A program made the translations under genes and the position numbers. The notes below the pieces were generated by a model, which did no database searches, had not been told where the DNA came from, and was given only the letters and a program-made list of their open reading frames with translations. Of a stretch of 41,750 nucleotides of DNA, positions 10,746 to 40,027 are shown piece after piece. Source of the DNA: Maribacter sp. (lineage in GTDB: Bacteria > Bacteroidota > Bacteroidia > Flavobacteriales > Flavobacteriaceae); contig NZ_JADGES010000018.1 of the NCBI RefSeq assembly GCF_016744255.1, positions 1 to 41,750 of the forward strand, written 5' to 3'. Position 1 is the first letter of the stretch, and the number at the start of each line of letters is the position of its first letter.

Positions 10746-10747
10746 TT

Positions 10748-10755: not shown

Positions 10756-10773
10756 GTTTCCTATAGAAAATAT

Positions 10774-11226
10774 ATGAAGGAATTAACCATAGATTATGCA
10801 CTACGTGCCACTTGGCAAGCCGTGACTAGAATGTACAATGAAGAAGCTAAAGAATTTGGTACAACTATGGCTGTTGGTTTTACTCTTTTAAGTATAGACC
10901 CAAAAACAGGAACTCCCTCTACCGCCTTAGGCCCTAAAATGGGTATGGAAGCTACAAGTCTTTCGAGGATATTAAAAAGTATGGAAGAAAAAGGGCTAAT
11001 TAAACGTAAACCTAACCCTAATGACGGGCGCGGTGTTTTAATACACCTTACCAACTTCGGTTTAGAAAAAAGAAAAGAATCTAAAGATGTTGTATTGCGA
11101 TTCAATGAAGCTGTAAAAAATAGTGTCACGGAAGAACAATTACATAATTTTTTTGAAGTAACCGATACTATAAACAAGCTTATTGCCGATAAAAAAATCT
11201 ACATAAAAGATACGAATCATAAATAA
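10774..11226 (+). CDS. MarR-family transcriptional regulator of the fad operon
   Basis: This 150-residue winged-helix regulator is the first gene of the operon. The recognition-helix region MEATSLSRILKSMEEKGLI (about residues 57-75) is followed by the wing motif with the family's DxR signature (PNDGRGVLIHL). Helices at both ends would form the dimer interface. The ATG at 10774 is chosen over an in-frame TTG at 10753 because the latter lies inside the -7 box. It is followed after 10 bases by fadN, so it is probably co-transcribed with fatty-acid oxidation genes and senses an acyl-CoA or fatty acid, as FadR-type regulators do by convergence. The ligand is an inference. The near-perfect dyad immediately upstream suggests autorepression. 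Confidence 0.88.
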   Translation: MKELTIDYALRATWQAVTRMYNEEAKEFGTTMAVGFTLLSIDPKTGTPSTALGPKMGMEATSLSRILKSMEEKGLIKRKPNPNDGRGVLIHLTNFGLEKRKESKDVVLRFNEAVKNSVTEEQLHNFFEVTDTINKLIADKKIYIKDTNHK

Positions 11227-11236
11227 TAGTAATTTA

Positions 11237-13642: not shown

Positions 13643-13705
13643 AAATTACTAAGCGATTTGCCTTTAGCCTATAGCTACTTGGCAATACCAATAACTAATA
13701 TAGAT

Positions 13706-13733
13706 GCTAGTAGCCAAAAGCTAATAGCCAAAA
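13706..13733. repeat. 14-bp tandem repeat in the fadN-fadA gap
   Basis: Two adjacent copies, GCTAGTAGCCAAAA and GCTAATAGCCAAAA, differ at one base. Looser copies of the same TAGCC/TAGCT words lie just upstream (about 13661-13690). The run ends 9 bases before the fadA ATG. Function is unknown. Confidence 0.75.
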
Positions 13734-13742
13734 GTATAAAAA

Positions 13743-14933
13743 ATGAAACAAGCATACATAGTTAAAGCATACAGAACCGCAGTAGGTAAAGCTCCTAAAG
13801 GTGTGTTCCGTTTTAAAAGAACAGATGAATTAGCAGCAGAAACCATCGCATACATGATGAAAGAACTGCCAGATTTTGATAAAAAACGTATTGACGATGT
13901 TATTGTAGGCAATGCAATGCCAGAAGGTTCTCAAGGATTAAATATGGCTAGACTCATCTCTTTAATGGGCCTAGATATTGTTGATGTTCCAGGCGTAACT
14001 GTAAACCGTTTTTGTTCTTCAGGGATTGAAACTATTGGTATCGCTACAGCAAAAATACAGGCCGGAATGGCAGATTGTATTATTGCTGGTGGTGCGGAAA
14101 GTATGAGCTCTGTTCCTATGACAGGAAATAAACCAGAACTAAATTACGATTTAGTAAAATCTGGTCATGAAGATTACTACTGGGGAATGGGAAATACTGC
14201 TGAAGCAGTTGCAAATCAATTTAAAGTTTCTCGTGAAGACCAAGATGAGTTTGCTTATAACTCGCACATGAAGGCTTTAAAAGCACAAGCAGAAGACCGT
14301 TTCCAAGACCAAATTGTTCCTATTAACGTAGAACAAATTTATATCGATGAAAATGGAAAAAAAGCATCTAAAAGTTACACCGTAACAAAAGATGAAGGAC
14401 CAAGGAAAGGAACTTCCAAAGAAGTTTTAGGAAAATTAAGACCTGTTTTTGCCGCTGGCGGTAGTGTTACTGCTGGTAACTCTTCGCAAATGAGCGATGG
14501 TGCTGCATTTGTATTGGTTATGAGTGAAGATATGGTTAAGGAGCTAAATCTTGAACCTATAGCAAGGCTAGTTAACTATGCCGCTGCTGGTGTAGAACCA
14601 CGTATTATGGGTATTGGTCCAGTTAAAGCTATTCCAAAAGCTCTAAAGCAGGCAGGATTAAAGCAAGAAGATATTGAGCTAATAGAACTTAACGAAGCCT
14701 TTGCTTCACAATCTTTGGCCGTGATGAGAGAATTAAAGATTAACCAAGATATTGTAAATGTAAATGGCGGAGCAATTGCACTAGGACACCCATTAGGTTG
14801 TACTGGAGCAAAACTTTCTGTTCAGTTGTTTGATGAAATGCGTAAAAGAAATATGCAAGGGAAATATGGTATGGTAACTATGTGCGTGGGAACTGGACAA
14901 GGAGCAGCTGGAATTTATGAATTTTTAAAATAA
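13743..14933 (+). CDS. fadA: Acetyl-CoA C-acyltransferase (3-ketoacyl-CoA thiolase)
   Basis: This 396-residue type II thiolase carries out the last beta-oxidation step, cleaving 3-ketoacyl-CoA with CoA to acetyl-CoA and a shortened acyl-CoA. The nucleophile is Cys91 in NRFCSSG. His349 lies in [15 protein letters not shown], and the acid/base Cys381 is in [15 protein letters not shown] provides the conserved Asn. Length and motifs are normal. The gene is flanked by fadN and, after a decayed four-helix-bundle gene, fadE. Together with FadN it would form a trifunctional unit; whether the two proteins associate is not known from sequence. Confidence 0.95.
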
Positions 14934-14958
14934 GAAGAGAGAGAAAAGACTAATAACA

Positions 14959-15301
14959 ATGCGACATAACTATAAGAATTTAAAAATTTGGCAGTTAGGT
15001 TTAGAAATAGTAAATGATGTATTGCTAGCATTTCCAAAACATGAACGTTTTGATTTGAGTTCACAAATTAGTCGTTGTTCTGTATCTATGCCTAGTAATA
15101 TCGCCGAAGGCTCTGGAAGAACTGACAAAAGCTTCAAGAACTTTATAAATTACTCTTTAGGCTCTTCTTTCGAATTGGGAACCCCATTATTGGTGGGCTC
15201 ACCATAGAAAATATATTAATAACGAAACATTAAAAACACTGGAAGATAAGATTTCAGAATGGCAGAGAATGACAATGGGCTTCCAAAATAGTCTAAAATA
15301 A
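14959..15301 (+). pseudogene. S23/four-helix-bundle protein (23S rRNA intervening-sequence type), frameshifted
   Basis: The first 75 residues match the S23 ribosomal-protein-like four-helix-bundle family: YKNLKIWQLGLEIVNDV, then SSQISRCSVSMPSNIAEGSGR, then NYSLGSSFEL. The frame then ends early at 15207. Removing one G from the GGG at 15195-15197 restores AHHRKYINNETLKTLEDKI and runs to a proper stop at 15299-15301, giving about 113 residues, the normal family length. Two substitutions just before the shift (ELGTP where ELETQ is usual) point to real decay rather than a single sequencing error, though that cannot be excluded. Genes of this family often occur inside 23S rRNA insertions. Here it splits fadA from fadE. 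Confidence 0.8.
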
Positions 15302-15347
15302 AGTCTTTCATCTCTATTCTATTTTTACTTTTTTAAACAAAAAAAAT

Positions 15348-17150
15348 ATGGCTACAGAAAACGAACTTTTAAGAGGAGGACAATTCCTGGTTAAAGAAAC
15401 TAAATGCGAAGATGTTTTTACGCTTGAGGATTTAACGGAAGAGCATAAAATGATGCGGGATAGCACCAAAGAATTTGTAGATAGAGAACTTTGGGCACAT
15501 TGGGAACGTTTTGAGAAAAAGGATTACGCTTTTACAGAGGAAACTATGCGTAAAGCCGGCGAACTTGGTCTTTTGAGTATCGCTGTTCCTCAGGCATACG
15601 GTGGAATGGGAATGGGTTTTGTTTCTACCATGTTAGTTTGTGATTATATTTCTGGCGCAACTGGTTCTTTCAGTACTGCATTTGGAGCACATACTGGTAT
15701 TGGAACTATGCCAATTACACTATATGGTACCGATGAGCAAAAACAAAAATACGTGCCAAAATTAGCGTCAGGAGAATGGTTTGGTGCCTATTGCTTAACA
15801 GAACCTGGAGCTGGTTCCGATGCAAACTCTGGAAAAACAAAAGCCGTTTTATCTGATGATGGTAAGCATTATAATATTTCTGGACAAAAAATGTGGATTT
15901 CCAATGCTGGATTCTGCAACTTGTTTATAGTATTTGCTAGAATAGAAGATGACAAAAACATTACTGGTTTTATTGTAGAAAATGACCCAAGTAATGGAAT
16001 TACTTTAGGAGATGAAGAAAAAAAATTAGGAATTCACTCCTCCTCTACTCGCCAGGTATTTTTTAGTGACACCAAAGTTCCTGTAGAAAATATGCTTTCT
16101 ACAAGAGGAAACGGATTCAAAATTGCAATGAATGCTCTTAATGTTGGTCGTATTAAACTGGCAGCAGCTTGTTTAGATGCACAACGTAGAGTTATTGGTG
16201 AGGCTACCAAATATGCTAACGAACGCATACAGTTTAAAACACCAATTATGAATTTTGGTGCTATAAAAGCCAAAATTGCTAATATGGCTACTAACTGTTA
16301 TGCAGATGAATCCGCTAGTTATAGAGCAGCAAAAAATATTGAAGATAGAATTGCTTTAAGAGAAGCTGCAGGTAACACTCACCAAGAAGCAGAACTTAAA
16401 GGTGTTGAAGAATATGCAATTGAATGTTCTATCCTTAAAGTCGCGGTTTCCGAAGATGTACAAAGCTGTACAGATGAAGGAATTCAGATATTTGGTGGTA
16501 TGGGCTTTTCTGCAGATACCCCAATGGAATCTGCTTGGAGAGATGCTAGAATTGCTCGTATTTATGAAGGCACAAACGAAATTAATAGAATGCTAGCTGT
16601 TGGTATGTTGGTTAAAAAGGCAATGAAAGGTCATGTAGACTTATTAGGCCCTGCAACTGCCGTTGGCGAAGAATTAATGGGAATTCCTTCTTTTGATGCT
16701 CCTGATTTTTCTGAGCTTTTCGCAGAAGAAAAAGATGTAGTAAAAAGATTAAAAAAAGTATTTTTAATGGTTGCTGGCTCTGCGGTTCAAAAATATGGTG
16801 CAGAACTAGAGAATCACCAGCAATTAATGTTGGCAGCATCCGATATATTAATTGAGATATACATGGCTGAATCTACGATTTTAAGAACGGAAAAAAATGC
16901 TAAACGTTTTGGCCAAGATGCTCAAAAAACCCAAATAGCAATGTCTAAATTGTATTTATATACTGCTGTGGATACCGTTATTCAAAAAGGAAAAGAAGCT
17001 GTCGTTTCTTTTGCTGAAGGAGATGAGCAACGCATGATGTTAATGGGACTTAAACGTTTTACAAAGTACACAAATCAACCTAACGTAGTAGCTTTACGTA
17101 CGCAAATTGCGGATAAAGTAGCTGCCGATAATGGTTACACCTTTGACTAA
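15348..17150 (+). CDS. fadE: Acyl-CoA dehydrogenase (long-chain type)
   Basis: This 600-residue FAD-dependent dehydrogenase catalyses the first oxidation of beta-oxidation. The N-terminal helical domain is followed by the FAD/substrate signature CLTEPGAGSDANS (about residues 149-161) and KMWISNAGF. The C-terminal helical domain carries FGGMGFSADTPMESAWRDAR, with the catalytic Glu407 in RIYEGTNE. A further ~170-residue helical C-terminal extension is like that of VLCAD/ACAD9 and B. subtilis FadE rather than short-chain enzymes, suggesting long-chain substrates. Electrons would go to an electron-transfer flavoprotein not present in the window. It is the last gene of the fad operon, closed by two hairpin terminators. 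Confidence 0.94.
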   Translation: MATENELLRGGQFLVKETKCEDVFTLEDLTEEHKMMRDSTKEFVDRELWAHWERFEKKDYAFTEETMRKAGELGLLSIAVPQAYGGMGMGFVSTMLVCDYISGATGSFSTAFGAHTGIGTMPITLYGTDEQKQKYVPKLASGEWFGAYCLTEPGAGSDANSGKTKAVLSDDGKHYNISGQKMWISNAGFCNLFIVFARIEDDKNITGFIVENDPSNGITLGDEEKKLGIHSSSTRQVFFSDTKVPVENMLSTRGNGFKIAMNALNVGRIKLAAACLDAQRRVIGEATKYANERIQFKTPIMNFGAIKAKIANMATNCYADESASYRAAKNIEDRIALREAAGNTHQEAELKGVEEYAIECSILKVAVSEDVQSCTDEGIQIFGGMGFSADTPMESAWRDARIARIYEGTNEINRMLAVGMLVKKAMKGHVDLLGPATAVGEELMGIPSFDAPDFSELFAEEKDVVKRLKKVFLMVAGSAVQKYGAELENHQQLMLAASDILIEIYMAESTILRTEKNAKRFGQDAQKTQIAMSKLYLYTAVDTVIQKGKEAVVSFAEGDEQRMMLMGLKRFTKYTNQPNVVALRTQIADKVAADNGYTFD

Positions 17151-27503: not shown

Positions 27504-28274
27504 ATGATAAGGTCTTTTTTTTATTCTTGTCTGTTTTGTATTTTTAGCGTTTTTACTATTTCTTGCAAACAAGATAGTAACGAAAAACCTATCCTAATTG
27601 CAACGGCTGCTAATATGCAAGAAGCTATGCAATTGCTAGTAGAGGATTTCACTAAAAAAACAGGAATAAAATGCCAATTAGTAGTAAGTTCTTCGGGTAA
27701 GCTAACCGCACAAATAAAAGCAGGCGCCCCATATAATATATTGGTATCTGCTGATATGAAATATCCCGAAGAAATTTATAAATCTGGTTATGCTATAACC
27801 CCTCCAAAAGTATATGCTTATGGAAAATTGGTTCTTTGGAGTGCGAATTCAAAAATTACACCATCTATTTCCTTTTTAAAAAAAGACGCTATACAACATA
27901 TTGCCATTGCTAATCCTAAAACAGCTCCATATGGAAGAGCTACAGAAGACGTTTTATCATATTACAATTTAAAAGAGTTACTAATGCACAAATTTGTAAT
28001 TGGTGAAAGTATATCGCAAACCAATCAATTTATTCATTCGCAAGCAGCAGAAATAGGTTTTACGGCAATGTCTACCATAACATCAGAAAAAATAAAAAAA
28101 AAAGGTAATTGGGTTGCTTTAGACACCAACACTTACCGCCCTATTAAACAATGTGTTATAGTTATAAATAAAGAAGCAGAAAGCAATAAAAAAGCCAAAA
28201 ATTTTTATTCCTACCTTTCTTCGAAAGAAGCACAACTTACGTTAACAAAATTTGGATATTCTATATATGAATAG
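27504..28274 (+). CDS. modA: Molybdate ABC transporter substrate-binding lipoprotein
   Basis: This 256-residue periplasmic binding protein of the ModA/WtpA type is tethered as a lipoprotein (TISC, Cys21). The characteristic N-terminus ATAANMQEAMQLLVEDF and SSSGKLTAQIKAGAPYNILVSAD give the oxyanion-binding residues (Ala/Ser and Ser positions in the ATAAN and SSSGKL segments). It captures molybdate or tungstate for the ModBC transporter. It leads a coupled set: the next gene starts inside its stop region (ATGAATAG overlap), followed by modB and modC. No separate promoter was recognised in the 29-base gap before it. Confidence 0.92.
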   Translation: MIRSFFYSCLFCIFSVFTISCKQDSNEKPILIATAANMQEAMQLLVEDFTKKTGIKCQLVVSSSGKLTAQIKAGAPYNILVSADMKYPEEIYKSGYAITPPKVYAYGKLVLWSANSKITPSISFLKKDAIQHIAIANPKTAPYGRATEDVLSYYNLKELLMHKFVIGESISQTNQFIHSQAAEIGFTAMSTITSEKIKKKGNWVALDTNTYRPIKQCVIVINKEAESNKKAKNFYSYLSSKEAQLTLTKFGYSIYE

Positions 28275-28671
28275 TTTTAAAGGAAATATAAGCCATATAA
28301 ATACCAAAGGAAATCTGTCTATAATTACTATTCAAATTAATGATAAAATAAAACTTAAGTCTATTGTAGTAGAAACTCCAAAAACAGCATCATTCTTACA
28401 TATAAATAATGAAATAGCAGTACTTTTTAAAGAAACAGAAGTTATTATTTCTATAGACCAAAATAGTAAGAGTAGTGTGCAAAATAGCATTTTGGGAACT
28501 ATAAAGTCTATTGAAAAAGGAGCTCTTTTAAGCAAAGTAAATTTGGCAACTTCTGCTGGGGATTTAACCACCATAATAAGTACCGATGCAATAACCGATT
28601 TAAACTTAAAAATAGACCTAAAAGTTACCGCCCTAATTAAATTAAATGAAATAATGCTTTCTAACACATGA
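28267..28671 (+). CDS. Double Mop/TOBE-domain molybdate-binding protein
   Basis: This 134-residue cytoplasmic protein is made of two tandem TOBE/Mop repeats (about residues 1-65 and 70-134). The repeats align at FKGNISHINTKG and ILGTIKSIEKGA. Such molbindins bind molybdate in oligomers and serve for storage or homeostasis. The ATG at 28267 is preferred to an in-frame TTG at 28252, as it gives the tight 8-base overlap with the modA stop and starts exactly at the domain. Its stop overlaps the modB start by 4 bases (ATGA), so translation is coupled through the operon. The sequence is diverged, so the domain call rests on pattern and context. Confidence 0.75.
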   Translation: MNSFKGNISHINTKGNLSIITIQINDKIKLKSIVVETPKTASFLHINNEIAVLFKETEVIISIDQNSKSSVQNSILGTIKSIEKGALLSKVNLATSAGDLTTIISTDAITDLNLKIDLKVTALIKLNEIMLSNT

Positions 28672-29339
28672 ATTGGGAACCTTTAATACTAACCTTTAAA
28701 TTAGCACTAGTAACAACAGTGTTGTTACTCATTATAGCTATTCCCTTGTGCTATTGGTTAGCCTATTCTAAATCTAGAATTAAACCTATTATAGAAACAC
28801 TGGTAAGTATGCCTTTGGTATTACCCCCAACAGTTCTAGGGTTTTATTTTCTTGTTGCTTTTAGTCCTAATAATGCTTTAGGAGATTGGTTAAATGGCAC
28901 TTTGGGAATTAAATTGCTTTTTTCATTCCCTGGGCTGGTTATAGCATCTATCTTTTATAGCTTGCCCTTTATGGTACACCCTATTCAATCTGGACTATAC
29001 AGCATTTCTCCTTCTTTAAAAGAAGCTGCATATGTTATGGGAAAATCTAAATTTTCTACTTTAATCCGTGTTCTTCTTCCGAATATAAAATCTTCTTTAT
29101 TAACCGGTATTGTTCTTTCTTTTGCACATACCATAGGCGAATTTGGTGTTGTACTAATGATTGGTGGTAATATTCCTGGAGAAACAAAAGTGGCTTCCAT
29201 AGCAATTTATGATGAGGTAGAAGCACTAAATTATAGTGCCGCTAACTCTTACTCGCTAGTGCTTTTTGCTATAACCTTTTGTATTCTTTTAATGGTATAT
29301 TTAATTAATGGCGGATACTTAAAAAAATCTAGGAAATGA
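28668..29339 (+). CDS. modB: Molybdate ABC transporter permease
   Basis: This 223-residue inner-membrane permease has five or six hydrophobic segments. The N-terminal portion PLILTFKLALVTTVLLLIIAIPL is a typical ModB start. The cytoplasmic EAA loop (KEAAYVMGKSKFSTLIRVLLP) docks the ATPase ModC, and HTIGEFGVVLMIGGN is strongly conserved in ModB. It overlaps both neighbours by 4 bases. The length is normal. Confidence 0.95.
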   Translation: MNWEPLILTFKLALVTTVLLLIIAIPLCYWLAYSKSRIKPIIETLVSMPLVLPPTVLGFYFLVAFSPNNALGDWLNGTLGIKLLFSFPGLVIASIFYSLPFMVHPIQSGLYSISPSLKEAAYVMGKSKFSTLIRVLLPNIKSSLLTGIVLSFAHTIGEFGVVLMIGGNIPGETKVASIAIYDEVEALNYSAANSYSLVLFAITFCILLMVYLINGGYLKKSRK

Positions 29340-30211
29340 TTGCGCTTAATATTCAAAAAGAATTACAATCTACCGATGGCAAAATGCTACTAAACCTTAA
29401 TTTAAGAATTAACAAAGGGCAATTGGTAACTTTATATGGCCCATCTGGAGTAGGAAAAACATCTACATTAAGAATGCTCTCTGGACTCTTAAAACCAGGA
29501 GAAGGGGTTATTACGGTTAATGATACTACCTGGTTTAGTACAGATAAAGATATAAATCTAAAACCTCAGCTTAGAAAAATTGGGTATGTTTTTCAGGATT
29601 ATGCTCTTTTCCCCCATATGAGTGTACTACAGAACTTAGAGTTTGCGCTTCATAAAAACCAAAAGAGCAATATTATTACCGAGCTCCTAACCATAATGGA
29701 GCTAGACCAACTTAAAGGCAGAAAACCAGACACGCTTTCTGGAGGACAAAAACAAAGAGTAGCATTAGCAAGAGCTCTTGTTCAAAAACCAGAAATACTA
29801 TTACTAGATGAGCCTCTTTCTGCTCTAGATAGTACTATACGATTAAAACTACAAGACTACATCTTAAAGGTTCATAAGAAATATAGTTTAACCACCATAC
29901 TAATAAGTCATGATATTGGTGAAATCTATAAGCTATCGGATTGGGTTTTTGTTTTAAAAGATGGCCTTTTAATCCAAGAAGGTACACCATCGGAAGTATT
30001 TATCTCCAAAAAAGTAAGTGGCAAATTTAAGTTTACAGGAGAAATTATATCCATAGAAAAGGAAGATGTTGTATTCATTGTCCGTGTTCTTATTTTCTCC
30101 GAAATAGTAAAAGTGATTGCACAAGAATCTGAAATTCAAAATTTAGGTCCTGGAGATAAAGTAATAATAGCCTCAAAAGCTTTTAATCCTATTATATTAA
30201 AACTGGAGTAA
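29336..30211 (+). CDS. modC: Molybdate ABC transporter ATP-binding protein
   Basis: This 291-residue ABC ATPase energises molybdate uptake. The Walker A motif GPSGVGKTS is at about residues 35-43. The Q-loop lies in YVFQDYALFPHMS. The signature LSGGQKQRVALARAL precedes Walker B ILLLDEPLSALD, and the switch His is in ISHD. The last ~65 residues (FTGEIISIEKEDVV onwards) form a single TOBE/Mop regulatory domain, shorter than E. coli ModC (352 residues). Together with the separate double-Mop protein, the operon encodes three Mop units. It is the last gene of the mod operon. Confidence 0.94.
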   Translation: MIALNIQKELQSTDGKMLLNLNLRINKGQLVTLYGPSGVGKTSTLRMLSGLLKPGEGVITVNDTTWFSTDKDINLKPQLRKIGYVFQDYALFPHMSVLQNLEFALHKNQKSNIITELLTIMELDQLKGRKPDTLSGGQKQRVALARALVQKPEILLLDEPLSALDSTIRLKLQDYILKVHKKYSLTTILISHDIGEIYKLSDWVFVLKDGLLIQEGTPSEVFISKKVSGKFKFTGEIISIEKEDVVFIVRVLIFSEIVKVIAQESEIQNLGPGDKVIIASKAFNPIILKLE

Positions 30212-30323: not shown

Positions 30324-30343
30324 TTACGATATCGATATCGTAA
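30324..30343. promoter_or_regulatory. 20-bp perfect palindrome upstream of the methylmalonyl-CoA operon
   Basis: TTACGATATCGATATCGTAA is an exact palindrome, centred about 70 bases upstream of the predicted transcription start. Its length and symmetry fit a dimeric regulator site of the TetR or similar kind. No regulator gene is adjacent. Confidence 0.55.
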
Positions 30344-30352
30344 GTTTTTTGA

Positions 30353-30374
30353 TTATATGATTTCTGTCATATAA
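30353..30374. promoter_or_regulatory. CRP/FNR-like dyad upstream of the methylmalonyl-CoA operon
   Basis: TTATATGA-N6-TCATATAA has perfect 8-bp arms and the TGA-N6-TCA geometry of CRP/FNR sites. The centre (30363.5) is about 42 bases before the predicted start, the class II activator position, and there is no -33 TTG. Activation by a CRP/FNR-family protein is inferred. Confidence 0.5.
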
Positions 30375-30392: not shown

Positions 30393-30400
30393 TAATTTTG
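30393..30400 (+). promoter_or_regulatory. -7 box (TAATTTTG) of the methylmalonyl-CoA operon
   Basis: An exact TAnnTTTG match lies 49 bases before the mce ATG. The -33 box is missing, with the dyad at 30353-30374 occupying that region. Confidence 0.5.
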
Positions 30401-30449: not shown

Positions 30450-30860
30450 ATGAACATATCTCATATTGAGCATTTAGGAATTGCAGTAGATAACTTAGAA
30501 GATTCTATAAAATATTATGAAGGGGTGCTCGGCCTTAAATGTTATTCTGTAGAAGAGGTTACTGATCAAAAAGTAAAAACAGCTTTTTTCTTGGTAGGAT
30601 CCACAAAAATTGAACTTCTAGAAAGTACTTCCCCGGATGGCCCTATTGGCAAATTCATAGCAAAAAAAGGACAAGGAATTCATCATATTGCTTTTGCCGT
30701 AGACGATGCAACAAAAGCATTACAAGTAGCAGAAGAAAGAGGCGTACAATTAATAGATAAGGTTTCTAGAAAAGGAGCAGAAGGATTAGAAATAGGATTC
30801 CTTCATCCAAAATCTACATTAGGCGTTCTTACCGAATTATGCTCAAAACCTAAAAAATAA
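30450..30860 (+). CDS. mce: Methylmalonyl-CoA epimerase
   Basis: This 136-residue protein of the vicinal-oxygen-chelate fold interconverts (R)- and (S)-methylmalonyl-CoA. Metal ligands are visible: His8 in IEHLGIAV, His in [11 protein letters not shown] and Glu in GVLTEL near the C-terminus. The catalytic Glu is in the KIELLE segment. Length and sequence are typical. It is the first gene of an eight-gene operon and links the mutase product to the decarboxylase substrate, so its placement supports a complete pathway. Confidence 0.95.
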
Positions 30861-30897
30861 CACCCTTTTTAATAAGCAAGTAACCCAATATATTACG

Positions 30898-32457
30898 ATG
30901 GCAAATCAAGATAAAATTAATGAGCTCATTGAGAAAAGAGCAAAAGCAAAACTCGGTGGTGGTGAAAAAAGAATTGATTCCCAGCACTCTAAAGGAAAAT
31001 TAACAGCCCGGGAACGAATTGACATTCTTTTAGATGAAGATAGTTTTGAAGAGTTTGATATGTTTGTTACCCATAGAACCAAATCTTTTGGTTTAGATAA
31101 ACAGGTTTATCTTTCCGATGGTGTAATAACCGGTCACGGTACTATAGACGGAAGAATAGTGTATGTATTCTCTCAAGATTTTACGGTGTTTGGAGGTTCA
31201 TTATCAGAGACTTATGCTCTAAAAATTTGTAAAATAATGGATATGGCAATGAAAATTGGTGTCCCTGTTATTGGTCTTAATGATAGTGGTGGTGCTCGTA
31301 TTCAAGAAGGTGTTCGTTCACTTGCTGGTTATGCAGAGATTTTTCAACGTAATATAATGGCTTCTGGAGTTATTCCTCAAATATCTTCCATATTAGGTCC
31401 CTGTGCTGGTGGTGCTGTTTATTCGCCTGCCTTAACTGATTTTACTATAATGACGGACCAAACAAGTTATATGTTTGTTACAGGTCCTAAAGTGGTTAAG
31501 TCCGTTACTGGTGAGGTTGTAACTACAGAAGAACTAGGTGGTGCTCAAATTCACTCTACAAAATCTGGTGTCTCTCACTTTTTAGCAGAAAACGATGAAG
31601 AAAACCTTCTTTTGGTAAGAAAATTAATGAGCTACCTTCCTAGCAATAATTTGGAAGATCCACCATCTATTAAATGTTCGGACCCTATTGATAGATTAGA
31701 TGATATTCTGAATGATATTATACCAGAAAATCCTAATCAACCTTATGATATTGTAGATGTTATTTCTGTTATAACGGATAATGGAGAATTTACAGAAGTA
31801 CATAGAAATTATGCACGTAACATTACGGTGGGCTTTGCTCGTTTTAATGGCCACCCTGTGGGTATTGTGGCTAACCAGCCTAAATATTTTGCTGGTGTTT
31901 TAGATTGTGAAGCATCTAGAAAAGCTGCTCGTTTTGTTCGTTTCTGCGATGCATTTAATATTCCTATTGTAACTCTAGTAGATGTACCAGGATTTTTACC
32001 AGGTACAGGTCAAGAATATGCAGGTATAATTCTACACGGTGCAAAACTGTTATTTGCTTATGGTGAAGCAACTGTTCCTAAAGTTACCATTACACTACGT
32101 AAATCTTATGGCGGTGCTCATGATGTAATGAGTTGTAAGCAACTTCGTGGCGATTTAAATTATGCATGGCCAACTGCAGAGATAGCAGTTATGGGTGCTA
32201 AAGGAGCTGTAGAAGTCTTAGAAGGTTCTAATATTAGAAAAATAGAAGATGCCAATGAAAAACAAGAATACATAGAGAAAAAAGAGGATGAGTATAATAC
32301 CAAATTTGCTAATCCTTATGTAGCTGCTAAATACGGATTTATTGATGATGTTATTGAGCCAAGAAACACAAGATTTAGAATTGTTAGAGCTCTAGAATTA
32401 CTTAGTAACAAGAAAGAAGTAAACCCTCCTAAAAAACACTCTAATATCCCATTATAA
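30898..32457 (+). CDS. mmdA: Carboxyltransferase subunit of a methylmalonyl-CoA decarboxylase (PccB-like)
   Basis: This 519-residue crotonase-type carboxyltransferase is homologous to propionyl-CoA carboxylase beta (PccB) and methylmalonyl-CoA decarboxylase alpha (MmdA). [18 protein letters not shown] is the standard N-terminal signature. [18 protein letters not shown] and [17 protein letters not shown] line the acyl-CoA site. [12 protein letters not shown] and [13 protein letters not shown] belong to the biotin half-site. Such proteins move CO2 between propionyl/methylmalonyl-CoA and biotin. Homology alone cannot separate PccB from MmdA. The neighbours (OadG-like, biotin carrier, Na+-pump beta) and the absence of a biotin carboxylase favour MmdA. 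Its stop overlaps the next start by one base. Confidence 0.88.
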
Positions 32458-32819
32458 TGGCAAATATATTATTATTTACAGACCAAATAAGCCAAGGCTA
32501 CATTATACTAATCACTGGGTTAGTAATTGTATTCAGTGCGCTTTTAACACTCTCTTTATTCTTTCAGCATGGGCTACCGGTTATGCTATATCTATATAAG
32601 ATTATAACCAAAGGAAGAGAGAAAAAAATAAAGGATATTAAAGTAGAAGCAGATAAGGAGTTTACCGGTGAAATAGCCGCAGCCATATCTTTAGCGCTAC
32701 ACATGTATTTAAATGAGCAGCATGATAATGAGAATGCCGTCTTAACTATTAAACAAGCAAGAAAATTGTATTCTCCTTGGAGCTCCAAAATATATGGTAT
32801 TCAAAATAGACTAAAATAA
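32457..32819 (+). CDS. OadG/MmdD-like small membrane subunit of Na+-pumping decarboxylase
   Basis: This 120-residue protein has one transmembrane helix at about residues 13-35 (YIILITGLVIVFSALLTLSLFF). A charged cytoplasmic tail follows. This is the layout of oxaloacetate decarboxylase gamma or methylmalonyl-CoA decarboxylase delta subunits, which tether the carboxyltransferase to the membrane beta subunit. The tail includes a helix (FTGEIAAAISLALHMYLNEQHD) that recurs in OadG-like proteins of Bacteroidota. The sequence is weakly conserved, so the call relies on topology and operon position (overlapping mmdA, 25 bases before the biotin carrier). Confidence 0.75.
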   Translation: MANILLFTDQISQGYIILITGLVIVFSALLTLSLFFQHGLPVMLYLYKIITKGREKKIKDIKVEADKEFTGEIAAAISLALHMYLNEQHDNENAVLTIKQARKLYSPWSSKIYGIQNRLK

Positions 32820-32844
32820 ACCGAGTAGCAAAAAAATACAACTA

Positions 32845-33264
32845 ATGAAAAACTTTGCATTTAAAATAAACGAAAACAGTTACAAGGTTAAAATTGTTTC
32901 TCAAGAAAATAACAAAATAGAACTAGAAGTAAACGGAACTTCTTACGCCGTAGAAATGGATAAGGATATTAAATCTAAAAAAACCCCTACTCTAGTTCGT
33001 GCAGCTTCTAAAAGACCCGCAGAGCCTCTTAAAGTAAACCCTACTTCTTCTAAAACTAAAATTGTAGCTCCTATTCCTGGAACTATACTTAGTCTAAATA
33101 TTAAAATAGGAGATGTTATTAAAGTCGGTGATTCCCTTTTAATACTAGAAGCCATGAAAATGGAAAACAATATTGTTGCAGAAAAAGCTGGTACAGTAAC
33201 CGCTATGAATATAGCCGTTGGGCAGCAAGTATTGCAAAATGAAGTAATGATAGAACTAGAATAA
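32845..33264 (+). CDS. mmdC: Biotin carboxyl carrier subunit of methylmalonyl-CoA decarboxylase
   Basis: This 139-residue biotinyl protein carries the lysine Lys105 in the canonical EAMKMEN motif, within a C-terminal biotinyl domain (about residues 69-139) starting VAPIPGTILSLNI. A Lys/Pro-rich linker precedes it. The N-terminal ~50 residues form a small domain found in these carriers. The carrier takes CO2 from the carboxyltransferase and delivers carboxybiotin to the membrane beta subunit. It is followed by a 64-bp gap containing a hairpin. Confidence 0.88.
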   Translation: MKNFAFKINENSYKVKIVSQENNKIELEVNGTSYAVEMDKDIKSKKTPTLVRAASKRPAEPLKVNPTSSKTKIVAPIPGTILSLNIKIGDVIKVGDSLLILEAMKMENNIVAEKAGTVTAMNIAVGQQVLQNEVMIELE

Positions 33265-33269
33265 AAATT

Positions 33270-33314
33270 AGAGCATCCATTTTCTTACATCTAAAGAGAA
33301 AAGAAAATGGCTCT
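33270..33314 (+). other. Intercistronic RNA hairpin between biotin carrier and beta subunit genes
   Basis: CCATTTTCTT (33277-33286) pairs exactly with AAGAAAATGG (33301-33310). AGAG/CTCT extends the stem after a 3-base bulge. There is no T-run, so it is not a terminator. It ends 14 bases before the beta-subunit ATG and may act in mRNA processing or translation control. Confidence 0.5.
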
Positions 33315-33328
33315 TAAAGCATAAACAA

Positions 33329-34651
33329 ATGAAAAAATTAATAATTCTTTTTAGTGTTCTTTCTGTTCTATTATTTGTAAGACCTTTACTATTTAGTACT
33401 ACTAACAGTCCAGATTTTAATAACACTTCTGTTGCAGCCAATGAAACACCACAAGAAGATGGAGAATCTTTTTATTCGGATGCATTTAAAGGCATAAGCC
33501 AATTTTATCAATACACAGGTTTTGCTAATGCAACATGGGGTAATATAATAATGATTCTTATAGGAATTGTCTTTATTTACCTTGGTATTAAATACGATTA
33601 TGAGCCCCTACTACTAATCCCTATTGGCACGGGTGTTATTCTAGGTAATATTCCATTTGTCCCAGGAAACCAAACGGGTATATATGAGGCAGGTTCTGTC
33701 TTTAACTATCTCTATTTTGGAGTAGTAAAAGGAATATATCCGCCTTTGATATTTTTAGGTATTGGTGCCATGACAGATTTTTCGTCCCTTATTGCCAATC
33801 CTAAACTAATGTTATTAGGTGCAGCTGCTCAAATAGGCGTATTTGCTACATTTCTAGGAGCTTTATATTTAGGATTTAACCTTCCAGAAGCTGGCGCAAT
33901 TGGTATCATTGGTGGTGCAGATGGCCCTACTGCTATTTTCCTTTCGTCCAAACTTGCAAATGGTATTAACCTTCTTCCAGATGGTACTACCGTTAAAAAC
34001 CTTATTGGCCCTATTGCCATTGCCGCATACTCTTACATGGCTTTGGTTCCAGTAATTCAACCCCCAATAATGCGCTTACTGGTAAATAAAGAAGATCGTA
34101 AAATTAAAATGAAACCACCAAGAGCGGTTTCTCAAAAAGAAAAAATGATTTTCCCCGTAGTAGCCTTATTGTTAACTACATTTATTTCTCCTAGTGCATT
34201 ACCATTATTAGGAATGTTGTTCTTTGGTAACTTACTAAAAGAATCTGGTAGAACAGAGCGTTTAGCAGATACTGCTCGTACCAAATTAATTGATATTGTT
34301 ACCATATTATTAGGGGTAACTGTAGGAGCATCGACACAAGCAGATATATTCATAACTAAAGATTCCATGTTAATATTTGGCCTAGGAGCAATATCCTTTG
34401 TCATAGCAACTATGGGAGGATTATTTTTTGCCAAATTCATGAATCTATTCTTAAAAGGAGACAACAAAATAAATCCATTAATCGGTGCCGCAGGTGTTTC
34501 GGCAGTACCAGATAGTGCCAGAGTTGTCCATGCGGAGGCTTTAAAATCGGACCCATCTAACTATTTATTAATGCATGCCATGGCACCAAACGTATCGGGT
34601 GTAATTGGTTCTGCAATTGCGGCGGGTATTATTTTAAGTTTCTTAGGATAA
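33329..34651 (+). CDS. mmdB: Na+-translocating decarboxylase beta subunit
   Basis: This 440-residue integral membrane protein of the OadB/GcdB/MmdB family decarboxylates carboxybiotin and couples this to Na+ export. There are about ten hydrophobic segments. PLIFLGIGAMTDFSSLIANPK and GIIGGADGPTAIFLSSKLA are the strongest family signatures, with the Na+-site Asp at residue 198 (GADGPT). AAGVSAVPDSARV and APNVSGVIGSAIAAG near the C-terminus are also conserved. The N-terminal ~90 residues carry an extra hydrophobic segment and an acidic linker before the core, longer than in the classical enzymes but common in Bacteroidota. Together with the three preceding genes it completes the pump. Confidence 0.93.
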   Translation: MKKLIILFSVLSVLLFVRPLLFSTTNSPDFNNTSVAANETPQEDGESFYSDAFKGISQFYQYTGFANATWGNIIMILIGIVFIYLGIKYDYEPLLLIPIGTGVILGNIPFVPGNQTGIYEAGSVFNYLYFGVVKGIYPPLIFLGIGAMTDFSSLIANPKLMLLGAAAQIGVFATFLGALYLGFNLPEAGAIGIIGGADGPTAIFLSSKLANGINLLPDGTTVKNLIGPIAIAAYSYMALVPVIQPPIMRLLVNKEDRKIKMKPPRAVSQKEKMIFPVVALLLTTFISPSALPLLGMLFFGNLLKESGRTERLADTARTKLIDIVTILLGVTVGASTQADIFITKDSMLIFGLGAISFVIATMGGLFFAKFMNLFLKGDNKINPLIGAAGVSAVPDSARVVHAEALKSDPSNYLLMHAMAPNVSGVIGSAIAAGIILSFLG

Positions 34652-34693
34652 AACAACATAATTTTTTTAGCATAACAACAAATATTTACTACC

Positions 34694-35983
34694 ATGAAAA
34701 TACCAAATGTAATGTCAGCTGATGAAGCTGTAAAACTTATAAAATCCGGAAATAGAGTATTAATTCAAGGCGGTTCAGCAACTCCACAGACTTTAATTAA
34801 AGCTATGGTAAAACATGGCCCTCAATTAAAAGGAGTAGAAATTGTTCACTTACATACCGAAGGAGAATGTGGCTATACAGATCCATCTTTAAAAGAAAGC
34901 TTTAGAACTAGCGCTTTTTTTATCGGTGGTAATGTTCGGAAAATGGTAGGTAATACCGTAGATTATATTCCTATATTTTTAAGTGATATTCCAAGTCTTT
35001 TTCGTCAAGGATATATGGACTTAGATGTAGTTCTTGTTAATGTTTCACCACCAGATAAACATGGTTTCTGTTCTTTAGGTGTCTCTGTAGATATCGTTAT
35101 TTCTGCTATAGAAAAAGGAAAAAAAGTGATTGCCCAGATAAACCCAAGAATGCCACGAACTTTCGGAGATGCTATTGTTCATTTAAACCAGTTCCATGCT
35201 TGCGTTCTTGTAGAGGAAGAAATACACGAAATGAAATTTGTTGCTCCCTCTAAAGAAGAAGAAGCAATAGGAAAAAATATTGCCGAGATTATTGAAGATG
35301 GCGCTACCCTACAAATGGGGATTGGTGGTATTCCTAATGCTGTATTAACGTACTTACATAACCATAAAGATTTAGGAATACATACTGAAATGTTTTCGGA
35401 AGGAATCGTAGATTTAGTAGAAAAAGGAATCGTTAATGGCTCTAAAAAGAAAATAAATCCAAATAAAATTATTTCAGGATTTGCAATGGGAACCAGACGC
35501 CTATACGATTTTATGGATGATAACCCTGAAATTGAAATGTTAGATATTGCTTATGTAAATGACACAGCTATTATACGCCAAAACCCTAAGGTTACTGCTA
35601 TAAACTCTGCCATCGAAATAGATTTCACTGGTCAAGTTTGTGCCGATTCTATAGGTACTAGAATGTTCTCTGGTGTTGGTGGTCAAATGGATTTTATGCG
35701 TGGTGCTGCTCTTTCTCAAGGAGGAAAACCAATTATTGCTGTTACCTCTACAACGCTTAAAGGTGTATCTAAAATTGTACCAGCACTTAAACCTGGTGCT
35801 GGAGTGGTTACAACACGTGCACATGCTAGATTTGTTGCAACGGAATATGGTGTAGCAGAGTTATTTGGTAGAACTTTAAAACAAAGAGCACAATCTTTAA
35901 GAGATATTGCACACCCTGATCATAGAGAAGGATTAGATCAAGCAATTTTCGAAAGATTTGGAAGTAGTCTAATGGTTAAGTAA
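34694..35983 (+). CDS. Acetyl-CoA hydrolase/transferase family CoA-transferase
   Basis: This 429-residue CoA-transferase is of the Cat/4-hydroxybutyrate CoA-transferase kind. The N-terminal half has GGSATPQTLIKAMVKH and the NVSPPDKHGFCSLGVSVD signature. The C-terminal half contains MGIGGIPNAVLTYL, HTEMFSEG with likely catalytic Glu232 (forming a glutamyl-CoA intermediate in this family), and GGQMDFMRGA. Within this operon the most economical reaction is propionyl-CoA + succinate giving propionate + succinyl-CoA, which would recycle CoA and re-prime the mutase. Acetate or another acid as acceptor cannot be excluded. A plain hydrolase function is less likely given the context. Confidence 0.85.
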   Translation: MKIPNVMSADEAVKLIKSGNRVLIQGGSATPQTLIKAMVKHGPQLKGVEIVHLHTEGECGYTDPSLKESFRTSAFFIGGNVRKMVGNTVDYIPIFLSDIPSLFRQGYMDLDVVLVNVSPPDKHGFCSLGVSVDIVISAIEKGKKVIAQINPRMPRTFGDAIVHLNQFHACVLVEEEIHEMKFVAPSKEEEAIGKNIAEIIEDGATLQMGIGGIPNAVLTYLHNHKDLGIHTEMFSEGIVDLVEKGIVNGSKKKINPNKIISGFAMGTRRLYDFMDDNPEIEMLDIAYVNDTAIIRQNPKVTAINSAIEIDFTGQVCADSIGTRMFSGVGGQMDFMRGAALSQGGKPIIAVTSTTLKGVSKIVPALKPGAGVVTTRAHARFVATEYGVAELFGRTLKQRAQSLRDIAHPDHREGLDQAIFERFGSSLMVK

Positions 35984-35997
35984 TTTAACCTTCTTTA

Positions 35998-37842
35998 ATG
36001 AATGATATTATGAATAATACAAATAATACAAATAAAAAACTCTTCACCGGTTTTGAGACTGTTACCAAGGAGAAATGGATGGAAAGGGTTACCGTAGATT
36101 TAAAAGGTGCTGATTTTAATAAGAAATTAGTTTGGAAAAACTTAAGTAAAATTAATATTCAGCCTCTTTATAATACTGAAGATGCTAAAGAGTATTTAAA
36201 AAATACAGGAGAAAACTCCCAAACTTTAGTAAACTATAGAAGTATTTATGTTTCTTCGGAAAAAAGAGGAAACGCTTTGGCTTTAGACGCTATAAAAGAA
36301 GGTCATAATGGTATTCTTTTTATCGTTAAAGGCAATATGGCTCCTGCCCGACTTTTAAAAGATATAGACTTAAACAAAATTACCGTTTCGTTTACTATAA
36401 AGAAAAACGCAGCAACATTTGTCCAAAATTTTATAGCACATGTTAAAAGCAGTAAAGTAAAAGCTAACAACCTTAAAGGTTTTGTAGACACTCAATTAAT
36501 CTCTAAATATGTTACCAAAGGAGAATTTGCTAAGAAAGCATTTAGCGAAGCTGCTGAAGTATTTTCTTTAGTTGAAAAATACCCCAATTATAAAGCACTA
36601 ACTATTTCTGGCAGTGAATATTTAGATTCAGGAGCCAACCAAGTACAAGAAATTGCCTATACCTTAAATTCTTTGGTATATGTAATAGAAAAACTTTCTG
36701 AAAAAGGAGTTAACACACAAGACATCTTTGACAATCTTAATTTTAAATTTGCAATAGGCCTAGAATACTTTGTAGAAATCGGAAAATTCAGAGCTTTCAA
36801 TAACCTCTTAAAAGAAATTGCTACAAAGTACGAGATTAAAGAGTTTAAGCATACTATACTTGCTAAAACATCTATTTGGAGTAAATCTATTACCGATGCA
36901 CATACCAATTTATTAAGAGCAACCACCGAAGCTATGTCTGCTATTTTAGGCAATGTAGATGGTGTTTTAGTAGATGCTTATGATAACGAATTTAATGATG
37001 CATCAGACTTTTCTAGTCGAATAGCAGGTAATATAACCACTATCCTAAAAGAAGAATCTTATTTCGGAAAAGTAGCAAACCCTGTAGATGGGTCTTATTA
37101 TATAGAAGAAGTATCATTAGCAATTGCAGAAAAAGCTTTAGAACTATTTAAAACTATTGAAGCTGAAGGTGGTTTCTATACCGCTTTTGAAAAAGAAATA
37201 ATTCAAGAGCAAGTAGCAGAAATTAGATTGCAAAAATTAAAACTAATAAGCCAAAGACGACTACCAATGGTTGGTATTAATAAATACCCTAACCTAATGG
37301 AGAAAGTTTCTTCTGAGCTACTGTCCAATGGAAACACTAACAAAAATAGTAAACTTCTAAAACCACGTAGAGCATCTCTAGAAATTGAAGCCATGCGTAA
37401 AAAAACAGAAGAATTGGTTGAGCAAACTAAAGTTAGACCCATTGTAGAACTTACTAGTTTTGGAAACTTAAATATGCGTAAAGCAAGAGCCGCATTTGCT
37501 TATGATTTTGTTGGTGTAAGTGGCTATAATGTACAACAAGAAAAAAGTCATGAAAGCGCAGAACAAGCTGCAGAATCAAGTGCAAAATCTGACTCTCATG
37601 TAGTTGTAATATGTAGCTCAGACCAAGACTATGATGAAAAAGCTCTTAGCTTTATACAAGCTTTTAGAGCGATAAGTAAAGACAAAATTTTATTACTGGC
37701 AGGAAACCCTACTGGAGATTTAATGAAAGAATTAACCGACGCAGGATTAGATGGTTGTGTTAATTTACGTTCCGATGTACTTGTTACGATTACCAGTATT
37801 CAAAATAAAATACAGAAAATCTTAAACCCATTAGCAGTATGA
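35998..37842 (+). CDS. mutA: Methylmalonyl-CoA mutase small (non-catalytic) subunit
   Basis: This 614-residue beta/small subunit partners MutB to interconvert succinyl-CoA and (R)-methylmalonyl-CoA. It has the TIM-barrel fold with recognisable mutase segments, such as [23 protein letters not shown] and [19 protein letters not shown]. The C-terminal B12-like domain lacks the DxHxxG cobalamin-ligand motif, as expected for the small subunit, and the substrate-site residues are degenerate. The sequence is the most diverged in the operon, which is usual for this subunit. A second in-frame ATG exists at 36010. The stop overlaps the mutB start by 4 bases (ATGA), so the two subunits are translationally coupled. 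Confidence 0.92.
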
Positions 37843-39971
37843 GACCCGATTTTTCAGATTTAAAACTAAATACCGCAGTTGAAGAAAAGGAAGCTGCTAA
37901 AGGAAAGGAAGCTGTTTGGAATACTCCAGAAGGAATTCCTGTAAAAAAACACTTTACTAAAGAAGATATTCTAGAGGCTGAGCATTTAAAATTTACTGCT
38001 GGTGTACCTCCATTTTTAAGAGGCCCATATAGCGCAATGTATGCTATGCGCCCTTGGACAGTACGTCAATACGCAGGTTTTTCAACTGCCGAAGAATCTA
38101 ATGCATTTTATAGAAGAAACTTAGCCGCAGGTCAAAAAGGACTTTCTGTTGCTTTTGATTTGGCTACACACCGTGGTTACGATTCGGATCACCCTCGTGT
38201 TACTGGTGATGTTGGTAAAGCTGGCGTTGCTATAGATTCTATTTTAGATATGCAGGTTTTATTTGACCAAATTCCGTTAGATAAAATGTCGGTTTCCATG
38301 ACAATGAATGGTGCCGTATTACCTATTATGGCATTCTATATTGCTGCTGCAAAAAAACAAGGCGTTTCTTTAGATAAGCTTTCTGGTACTATTCAGAATG
38401 ATATTTTAAAAGAATTTATGGTGCGTAATACATACATATACCCACCAGCACCATCCATGCAAATTATTGGTGATATTTTTGATTACACCACTAAAAATAT
38501 GCCTAAGTTTAATTCTATCTCTATTAGTGGATACCACATGCAAGAAGCAGGTGCTACAGCAGATATTGAATTAGCATATACTTTAGCAGATGGAATGGAA
38601 TATATACGAACCGGATTAAAATCTGGTTTAAAAATTGATGAGTTTGCTCCCAGACTATCTTTCTTCTGGGCAGTAGGTATGAACCATTTTATGGAAATTG
38701 CAAAAATGCGTGCTGCACGTATGCTTTGGTCAAAAATTATAAAAACATTCAACCCACAAAACCCAAAATCTATGGCTTTGCGTACGCATAGTCAAACTTC
38801 TGGATGGAGTTTAAGTGAGCAAGACCCATTTAACAATGTGGCTCGTACTTGTATAGAGGCAATGGCTGCCAGTTTAGGAGGAACACAATCCCTACATACT
38901 AACGCCTTAGATGAAGCAATTGCTTTACCAACAGATTTCTCTGCAAGAATTGCACGTAATACGCAAATCTTTATCCAAGATGAAACCCAAATGACAAAAG
39001 CGGTGGATCCTTGGGCTGGTTCTTACTATGTGGAGTATTTAACACAAGAAATAGCCCAGAAAGCTTGGAAACTTATTGAAGAAGTAGAAGAACTAGGCGG
39101 AATGGCAAAAGCGATTGAAACCGGAGTTCCTAAAATGCGTATTGAAGAAGCTTCTGCTCGTAAACAAGCACGTTTAGATTCTGGTAAGGATATACTCGTT
39201 GGTGTAAATAAATTTAAAACAAATGAACCTTCTAATATTGAAATATTAGAAGTAGATAACACTGCCGTTAGAGACTCTCAGATTGCACGTATTAATAAAA
39301 TGAAAGCAGATAGAGACCAAGCTGTCGTAGATGCTAATATTGCTGCTTTATCTAAATGTGCAGAAACTGGAGAAGGTAATTTATTAGAATTAGCTGTTGA
39401 AGCTGCCGAAAACTTTGCTACATTAGGTGAAATATCCGATGCTTTAGAAGTCCATTTTGGAAGACATAAGGCAGATACTAAATTAATAAGCGGCGTGTAT
39501 AGTAAAGAAGTAGATAACGATAGTACTTTTGCAAAAGCCCAAAAATTGGCTGATAAATTTGCAGAGATAGAAGGTCGTAGACCTCGTGTAATGATTGCAA
39601 AAATGGGGCAAGATGGGCACGATAGAGGTGCTAAAGTAGTTGCTTCTAGTTTTGCCGATTTAGGTTTCGATGTAGATATGGGCTCTTTATTCCAAACCCC
39701 AGAAGAAGTAGCAAAACAGGCTATAGAAAATGATGTGCATTTTGTAGGAGCTTCTAGTTTAGCTGCTGGCCATAAAACTTTAATTCCACAATTAATTGGG
39801 GAATTAGAAAAGCTAGGCCGACCAGATATTATGGTTTTTGCCGGTGGCGTAATACCACAACAAGATTATGATTATCTATTAGAACGCAAAGTAGCAGCTA
39901 TTTTTGGCCCAGGTACTGTAATATCAGAATCTGCAATAACTATAATGGAGAAATATTTAGAGTTAGATTAA
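37839..39971 (+). CDS. mutB: Methylmalonyl-CoA mutase large (catalytic) subunit
   Basis: This 710-residue adenosylcobalamin enzyme has the N-terminal TIM barrel with [21 protein letters not shown] (substrate tunnel), [17 protein letters not shown] and [19 protein letters not shown]. The B12-binding domain begins at [19 protein letters not shown] with cobalt-ligating His594 in DGHDRG, followed by [12 protein letters not shown] and [11 protein letters not shown]. Length and residues are normal. It is the last gene of the operon, closed by a strong terminator. The G-protein chaperone MeaB/ArgK that protects this enzyme is not in the window. Confidence 0.97.
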
Positions 39972-39987
39972 CACTACCTATTTATGT

Positions 39988-40027
39988 AAAACCCCCAAAA
40001 CGTATCCGTTTTGGGGGTTTTCTTTTT
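39988..40027 (+). terminator. Strong intrinsic terminator of the methylmalonyl-CoA operon
   Basis: A 15-bp perfect stem (AAAACCCCCAAAACG with its complement) has loop TATC and is followed by a T-run, 17 bases after the mutB stop. Confidence 0.92.

Follow-up and report, generated by a model that had tools for sequence, protein, structure and literature searches.

The 41,750-nucleotide stretch of a Maribacter sp. genome analyzed here (contig NZ_JADGES010000018.1, assembly GCF_016744255.1; hereafter the window) carries eight co-oriented, intact open reading frames at 30450-39971 on the forward strand. We propose that they encode a closed coenzyme A (CoA) cycle from succinate to propionate and CO2 with export of Na+, and that this operon is activated by a Crp/Fnr-type regulator together with pta-ackA and vitamin B12 uptake genes in a fermentative, probably oxygen-limited state, a proposal that we consider likely to be correct. 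The host genome (3.59 Mb, 181 contigs, 99.9% complete) is flavobacterial. The closest named relative, with MmdB 96% identical, is an uncultured Maribacter, and the two loci are colinear between about 24.4 and 40.0 kb of the window. A preliminary description of this DNA, made from its letters alone, had already proposed the eight-gene set, its order and a flavobacterial host, all of which are borne out by profile matches, coordinates, conservation in relatives and the assignment of the genome. The operon and its flanking signals are as follows.

30356..30371, forward strand: dyad of Crp/Fnr geometry, TATGATTTCTGTCATA, predicted activator site; at a fixed offset in 68/69 promoter regions
30393..30400, forward strand: Bacteroidota-type -7 box, TAATTTTG; dyad-to-box offset constant across regions
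30450..30860, forward strand: mce, methylmalonyl-CoA epimerase, 136 aa; TIGR03081 145 bits (cut-off 115)
30898..32457, forward strand: mmdA, carboxyltransferase (alpha) subunit, 519 aa; PF01039 653 bits, TIGR01117 799 bits (under the cut-off of 999), genomic context
32457..32819, forward strand: oadG/mmdD-like small membrane subunit, 120 aa; PF04277 (OAD_gamma) 29.8 bits (cut-off 27), a weak match
32845..33264, forward strand: mmdC-like biotin carrier, 139 aa, with the motif AMKM; PF00364 51 bits
33329..34651, forward strand: mmdB, predicted Na+-translocating carboxybiotin decarboxylase (beta) subunit, 440 aa; TIGR01109 462 bits (cut-off 191), 346.6 bits to PDB 6iva, Na+-site residues
34694..35983, forward strand: cat, class-I CoA-transferase of the 4-hydroxybutyrate type, 429 aa; PF13336 (AcetylCoA_hyd_C) 211 bits, PDB 2oas 478 bits
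35998..37842, forward strand: mutA, methylmalonyl-CoA mutase small subunit, 614 aa; PF01642 284 bits, TIGR00642 348 bits (under the cut-off of 617)
37839..39971, forward strand: mutB, methylmalonyl-CoA mutase large subunit with B12 domain (PF02310), 710 aa; NF006944 1293 bits (cut-off 876)
39988..40021, forward strand: intrinsic terminator 3' of mutB, 15-pair stem and T run; -22.9 kcal/mol, z -5.5

The gaps between consecutive genes are 37, -1, 25, 64, 42, 14 and -4 bases, and the terminator hairpin begins 17 bases past the end of mutB. Order and spacing agree with the operon layout of the preliminary description, and the spacing together with the terminator suggests that the eight genes form one transcript.

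The identity of the pump was assessed against the solved beta subunit of oxaloacetate decarboxylase (OAD). Ten of the 11 functional positions of that subunit are retained in the window MmdB and in 80/80 relatives (the best 80 of 115 confirmed named Flavobacteriaceae-type loci, some of them broken by contig ends). Glu40 and Arg304 (OAD numbering) are retained in the window copy, and the Na+-site residues Asp203, Ser382 and Asn412, which correspond to Asp198, Ser391 and Asn421 in the window, are kept in all 80. Except for Arg389, Ser419 and the fold residues, the eleven positions are essential in OAD (PMC7274780, in excerpt). The retained residues of a solved pump thus support the Na+-pump type assigned in the preliminary description. 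MmdB is 438-457 aa long in 78/80 loci, the other two copies being shorter and located at contig starts, and 438-445 aa in 21/21 flavobacterial copies of the tree set; copies from 18 distant loci (L123-L128 and L130-L141; 16 from other classes of the phylum, 2 from the same class) are 376-389 aa long, with one exception of 563 aa. The difference corresponds to an N-terminal extension of about 50 residues (window 33329-33490) with a hydrophobic, signal-like stretch, which is missing from nearly all distant copies read.

Three biotin carboxylase matches were identified in the host genome, none of them on the contig of the operon, and no biotin carboxylase gene adjoins the operon carboxyltransferase. 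Genes for a carrier, a biotin carboxylase and a carboxyltransferase are consecutive on contig C171 and constitute a complete ATP-dependent propionyl-CoA carboxylase (PCC), which neither an MmdB nor an OadG gene adjoins. The PCC and operon carboxyltransferases are 62-65% identical. The preliminary description had named ATP-dependent carboxylation by the product of the gene at 30898 with a separate biotin carboxylase as a point that would count against its reading; gene order gives no sign of such a partnership, as the PCC-type biotin carboxylase gene is grouped with those of its own carrier and carboxyltransferase.

The mutase is of the two-subunit type, with a large subunit that carries the B12 domain and a small subunit that scores under the TIGR00642 cut-off. 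The host genome has no PF01642 match other than MutA and MutB, and no PF13336 match other than the operon CoA-transferase. Among the 21 genomes with the pump, a second full-length MutB of the two-subunit type is absent from 13, truncated in two (frames of 533 and 540 aa) and full or nearly full in six, so that the operon MutB is the sole full-length large subunit in the host genome and in most pump genomes sampled. Many of these genomes also carry a mutase-like frame of about 1140-1170 aa, presumably a fused isobutyryl-type enzyme. The CoA-transferase is closest in the PDB to 4-hydroxybutyrate CoA-transferases; it scores 102.5 bits on TIGR03458 (YgfH, propionyl-CoA:succinate; cut-off 658.7) and also falls under the cut-off for butyryl-CoA:acetate CoA-transferase.

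Upstream of mce, a dyad with the consensus ATGAY-N4-RTCAT is located at a fixed distance from the -7 box. We take both the name of this box and its usual distance from the transcription start as given for Bacteroidota. The promoter set comprised 69 regions (70 minus L032, in which the epimerase gene is cut by a contig end). A dyad with at least 9/12 letters occurs at one and the same offset from a TAnnTTTG box in 59/69 regions and at another offset in two; of the remaining regions, seven lack a TAnnTTTG box and one scores lower. When a final A is permitted in the box and at least 8/12 letters are required, the architecture is found in 68/69 regions, the exception being L041. These regions are related and not independent; the stronger argument is that the TGA/TCA core is invariant whereas the spacer between dyad and box is variable. 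At a threshold of at least 10/12 letters, 2.31 Mb of loci (mce promoters included) yielded 70 matches at the fixed offset against a mean of 1.1 at 89 other offsets. Within the window, the dyad at 30356 is the only match with at most one mismatch, which alone is not significant (chance mean 0.5). The dyad is also present in 5/5 further family loci (L149-L152 and L155, partly the same strains as the named loci), and it belongs to the main flavobacterial group.

The dyad center lies 29.5 bases 5' of the box. In class II activation by the Crp/Fnr superfamily, a TGA-N6-TCA dyad is bound some 41 bp 5' of the transcription start, and the arrangement observed here likely represents such a class II position near -41. 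Crp/Fnr sites of the HcpR type in other bacteria, TTGACnnnnGTCAA, have a similar form (PMC1274295, in excerpt). A sigma-70 promoter scan was uninformative (33 found, 38 in shuffles), and TAnnTTTG by itself occurs 61 times in the window against 64 expected, being meaningful only through its fixed offset to the dyad. Just 5' of the dyad, at 30324-30343, is a perfect 20-base palindrome, TTACGATATCGATATCGTAA, which is not among the palindromes listed for relatives; a palindrome with the core ACTAAAACGTTTTAGT is present 5' of the dyad in several Lutibacter-type promoters (L019, L026, L027, L031, L034, L037, L062 and L077).

The same architecture was identified in front of other genes. A scan of 1.22 Mb (34%) of the host genome, using a matrix built from 68 sites, returned six matches at the fixed offset, against a mean of 0.19 and a maximum of 2 at 69 other offsets. 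The operon, which was among the training sites, scores highest (22.4), followed by the promoter of pta-ackA (15.7; genes identified by family). A PF01497 binding-protein gene (10.8) and a TonB receptor gene (6.1) diverge from a single dyad placed between them. Because a cobalamin riboswitch (98.9 bits) precedes the receptor gene, this pair is assigned to B12 uptake, with the receptor itself scoring under the curated B12 cut-off (103 of 600). A further match (6.9) is near two other Crp/Fnr genes, and another has no gene behind it. Among the 80 relatives, nosD is inside the locus in 19, and the start of the nosZ operon is reached in two (L059 and L088), both of which have the dyad-box architecture. 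This operon begins with a fasciclin gene, followed in L088 by genes for cytochrome c, nosZ, one open reading frame, nosL, nosD, an ATP-binding cassette (ABC) ATPase and a membrane protein. Elsewhere in the relatives, the architecture also matches at genes whose role is unknown and in geneless stretches. A promoter architecture common to pta-ackA, B12 uptake and nosZ operons lends independent support to the fermentative or low-oxygen role suggested in the preliminary description.

A regular-expression search for Crp/Fnr genes in the host returned none and was too strict, as two such genes exist by homology on contig C9. They lie beside sulfide-type genes and are not evidently the regulator of the dyad. 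The region in question (L169, G000:C9, 2830-7085) comprises the two Crp/Fnr-type genes, one of which was tested with Pfam, and three neighbors that we take to be sulfide-quinone-reductase-like, DUF2892-like and rhodanese-like.

What the sequences establish directly is the set of genes and their order, the retained residues, the conservation of the locus, the dyad at its fixed distance from the -7 box, the occurrence of this architecture at other genes and the absence of a second mutase; that the enzymes are active, coupled to Na+ and run in the direction given, and which regulator responds to which signal, is inferred. In the proposed cycle, the CoA-transferase would move CoA from propionyl-CoA to succinate (substrates presumed), MutAB would convert succinyl-CoA to methylmalonyl-CoA, and Mce would epimerize the latter. 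MmdA would then hand the carboxyl group of methylmalonyl-CoA to biotin on MmdC, and the release of CO2 from carboxybiotin by MmdB would be linked to the export of Na+. An activator of the Crp/Fnr family, bound to the dyad just 5' of the promoter, would switch the operon on. The promoter shared with pta-ackA, B12 uptake and nosZ appears to favor the decarboxylating, fermentative direction. NqrB is encoded in the host genome, which indicates a primary Na+ pump and a Na+ circuit; no rhodopsin match, as a light-driven Na+ supply, was found in the genome, and control genomes were likewise silent, so absence is not demonstrated.

The separate ATP-dependent carboxylase would serve the opposite direction and now rely on the operon mutase. 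In a genus mate of the host (G129), in which no pump beta subunit was found, the PCC row runs on into mutA-mutB; eight genes are colinear between the two genomes up to the carboxyltransferase, after which the mutase pair is missing in the host. With no other mutase available, PCC use requires that the operon be expressed at some basal level or respond to a second signal.

Several observations weigh against the proposed cycle and its control. Asn311, essential in OAD, is replaced by Thr in the window MmdB and in 80/80 relatives. Among the pump subunits, the OadG-like one is a weak match (29.8 bits on PF04277, cut-off 27), and two are under their curated cut-offs, MmdC with 57 bits on NF047903 (cut-off 200) and MmdA with 799 bits on the curated mmdA model (cut-off 999). 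The last model also scores one Bacteroidota MmdA at 815 and the PCC carboxyltransferase of the host at 783; since all these scores are similar and under the cut-off, it cannot tell the two types apart. MutA likewise scores 348 bits on TIGR00642, for which the cut-off is 617. The class of the CoA-transferase leaves its substrates unfixed, and its gene is missing before mutA in 13/80 loci that retain at least part of mutA. Searches of the window and of the sampled third of the host genome for MeaB, nosZ and nosD found none of them. In a MutB tree, seven stand-alone copies all fall on one side of a 100/100 branch, and the operon copies of G166, G101 and G425 group with them (98/81), apart from the main operon group; operon mutases are therefore not demonstrated as one lineage, a placement that counts slightly against the proposal. 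The fixed-offset dyad was not found in the operons of G166, G101, G206 and G425 or in the 18 distant loci, several of which were read from mmdA only, and the search did not yield the gene for its regulator. Of the six matches in the host scan, the operon accounts for one and the two faces of a single dyad for two more, while another is geneless and yet another is near other Crp/Fnr genes. PCC use needs the operon mutase, the sole one, which means that the operon would also be on under those conditions. Finally, a Crp/Fnr protein need not sense oxygen.

This last point leads to the possibility that the cycle runs in the same direction under a switch that answers carbon or cyclic AMP (cAMP) in a MalR-like manner, making it a response to overflow or carbon state with no oxygen response. 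The dyad indicates only the Crp/Fnr superfamily, carbon sensing has been predicted for Flavobacteriales homologs (PMC8510549, in excerpt), and pta-ackA and B12 uptake are compatible with overflow too. On the other side, the nosZ operons of L059 and L088, which represent an anaerobic trait, have the identical architecture, and we regard a carbon switch as somewhat unlikely while giving it serious weight.

The preliminary description had also suggested that the system might run backwards, with the Na+ gradient in place of ATP driving carboxylation of propionyl-CoA. Propionyl-CoA from amino-acid or odd-chain lipid breakdown would then be converted to methylmalonyl-CoA and succinyl-CoA with a saving of ATP. 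This suggestion finds little support here, and we consider it improbable. A Na+-NQR subunit in the genome and a beta-oxidation gene set in the window are compatible with it, and 6/21 pump genomes lack the ATP-dependent PCC (those without the PCC biotin carboxylase also lack the PCC carboxyltransferase) and have no second full-length MutB, so that the operon is the only such route found there. However, the host encodes a complete PCC, and possession of the pump and of PCC is not mutually exclusive: PCC is present in 15/21 pump genomes and in 126/228 others (15/6 against 126/102; odds ratio 2.0, Fisher p 0.17), with G233 scored as PCC-bearing on the basis of a split biotin carboxylase gene. The idea that the pump substitutes for PCC as a general rule was rejected on these counts. 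The absence of PCC in the six genomes says little, because 82/208 mutase-bearing genomes without the pump also lack the PCC biotin carboxylase. The promoter shared with fermentation genes also argues against the reverse direction, and carboxylation by the methylmalonyl route was infeasible under the syntrophic conditions of one bioenergetic study, which are not those of this host (PMC7743110, in excerpt). A related and equally doubtful idea is that PCC and the Na+ pump, acting on one mutase and one methylmalonyl-CoA pool, would trade ATP against the Na+ gradient, with the pump of the six PCC-less genomes running backwards to fix CO2 into propionyl-CoA.

Marine flavobacteria hold odd-chain lipids, and such lipids are thought to be general. 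A supply route, in which decarboxylation yields propionyl-CoA for odd-chain or branched lipids with no energy-conserving end product, would fit the endpoint of the pathway and the 13/80 loci that lack the propionate-releasing CoA-transferase, but it is very improbable given the patchy presence of the pump (21/249 genomes), the control shared with pta-ackA and nosZ, and a Na+ pump that such a route would not need.

The preliminary description had proposed a search of Flavobacteriaceae for the same gene order; all eight genes in identical order recur in 53/80 loci, more than expected by chance, and the CoA-transferase gene is directly 3' of mmdB in 64/80. It is fragmented in L078, and L059 and L064 have neither mutase nor CoA-transferase past mmdB. 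The pump beta subunit was identified in 21/249 Flavobacteriaceae genomes (17/202 genera), and a beta-subunit match in 84/296 genomes of the phylum, with distant decarboxylase subunits counted in. A MeaB-family GTPase gene is near the cluster in 53/80 loci, 52 of them with the gene downstream on the opposite strand; the one cluster-adjacent gene tested matched Pfam MeaB with 346 bits. In none of the 18 distant loci does a mutA-mutB pair follow mmdB, and a mutase-like gene (47%) precedes the methylmalonyl-CoA decarboxylase (MMD) cluster in L134 and L135. A genome of another family of the same class (G425) carries mce through mutB with no CoA-transferase, and one of the same family (G206) has mutase and CoA-transferase genes beside the MMD genes on the opposite strand.

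In the MmdB tree, which leaves out L139 (563 aa), the flavobacterial copies group with G425, next to the Bacteroidia-type copies; the values for this group are 96/60 if G206 is counted in and 99/94 if it is not. Operon MutB is 87-93% identical between genera in the listed copies of 18/20 other pump genomes and 76% in G166 and G101, with no MutB inside the operon of G206, and the PCC carboxyltransferase is 75-79% identical between genera. The higher identity of operon MutB than of the PCC carboxyltransferase may point to lateral transfer of the operon. In a single-contig genome (L151, G062:C1:341000-360000), the matches to mmdA and to mutA are both split in two, owing to decay or sequencing error.

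Two further gene sets are found elsewhere in the window. Immediately 5' of the operon, at 27504-30211, genes for ModA and ModB, both scoring over cut-off, and for an ATPase make up an ABC transporter of the molybdate type, which among the named loci occupies that position only in L073. The beta-oxidation set at 8895-17150 comprises genes of the AMP-binding acyl-CoA synthetase type, 3-hydroxyacyl-CoA dehydrogenase/hydratase, thiolase and acyl-CoA dehydrogenase, and is a possible source of propionyl-CoA.

The family Flavobacteriaceae is described as aerobic, and its marine members are generally regarded as aerobes that break down algal polysaccharides. If the proposed cycle operates, members of Lutibacter, Winogradskyella, Maribacter, Formosa, Polaribacter and other genera would ferment under short oxygen, need B12 and release propionate, which suggests that bacteria usually described as aerobes hold a fermentation mode in reserve. 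The dyad and box together provide a precise, checkable predicted binding motif for a Crp/Fnr regulator. Among the matches listed in open-access literature, no Flavobacteriaceae MMD operon or its regulation was found by title or abstract opening. As far as these searches reach, the conserved eight-gene operon in Flavobacteriaceae, its apparent role as sole mutase source in this host and its predicted Crp/Fnr-type control in common with fermentation genes are new. The enzymes and the pathway themselves are long known, from Hilpert and Dimroth onward (as cited by PMC8473912, in excerpt).

Compared with the beta subunit of OAD (PDB 6iva; 346.6 bits), the window MmdB shares Glu40, Asp203, Arg304, Ser382 and Asn412, and differs in having Thr for Asn311, a signal-like N-terminal extension, and a stretch between the second and third helices, the place of OAD domain E, that is shorter by about 50 residues. 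Bacteroidia-type MMD clusters are related, with a main group whose MmdB shows about 64-76% identity across the matched part. In Phocaeicola vulgatus, the genes are scattered by locus number (mutase bvu_0309-0310, epimerase 2792, decarboxylase 1465/2491/3102, CoA-transferase 1163), no propionate is made once the mutase is deleted, and the pump is credited by the authors with about 2% of the ATP (PMC11405475, in excerpt), so that the energy gain may be small. Defluviicoccus, which lives in alternating anaerobic and aerobic phases, also has MMD and PCC genes in one organism, and its MMD is proposed to build a Na+ gradient in the anaerobic phase (PMC9041414, in excerpt). There, unlike here, MMD is tied to a storage polymer, and the same excerpt describes no operon of the eight-gene make-up. 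A functional parallel is the methylmalonyl-CoA decarboxylase of Veillonella and Propionigenium modestum, which carries out the same reactions, from succinate to propionate with Na+ export (PMC8473912, in excerpt). Unlike in these anaerobes, the operon described here includes a CoA-transferase of the 4-hydroxybutyrate type and a predicted promoter site of the Crp/Fnr type. The subunit types of the decarboxylase are presumably the same in all three.

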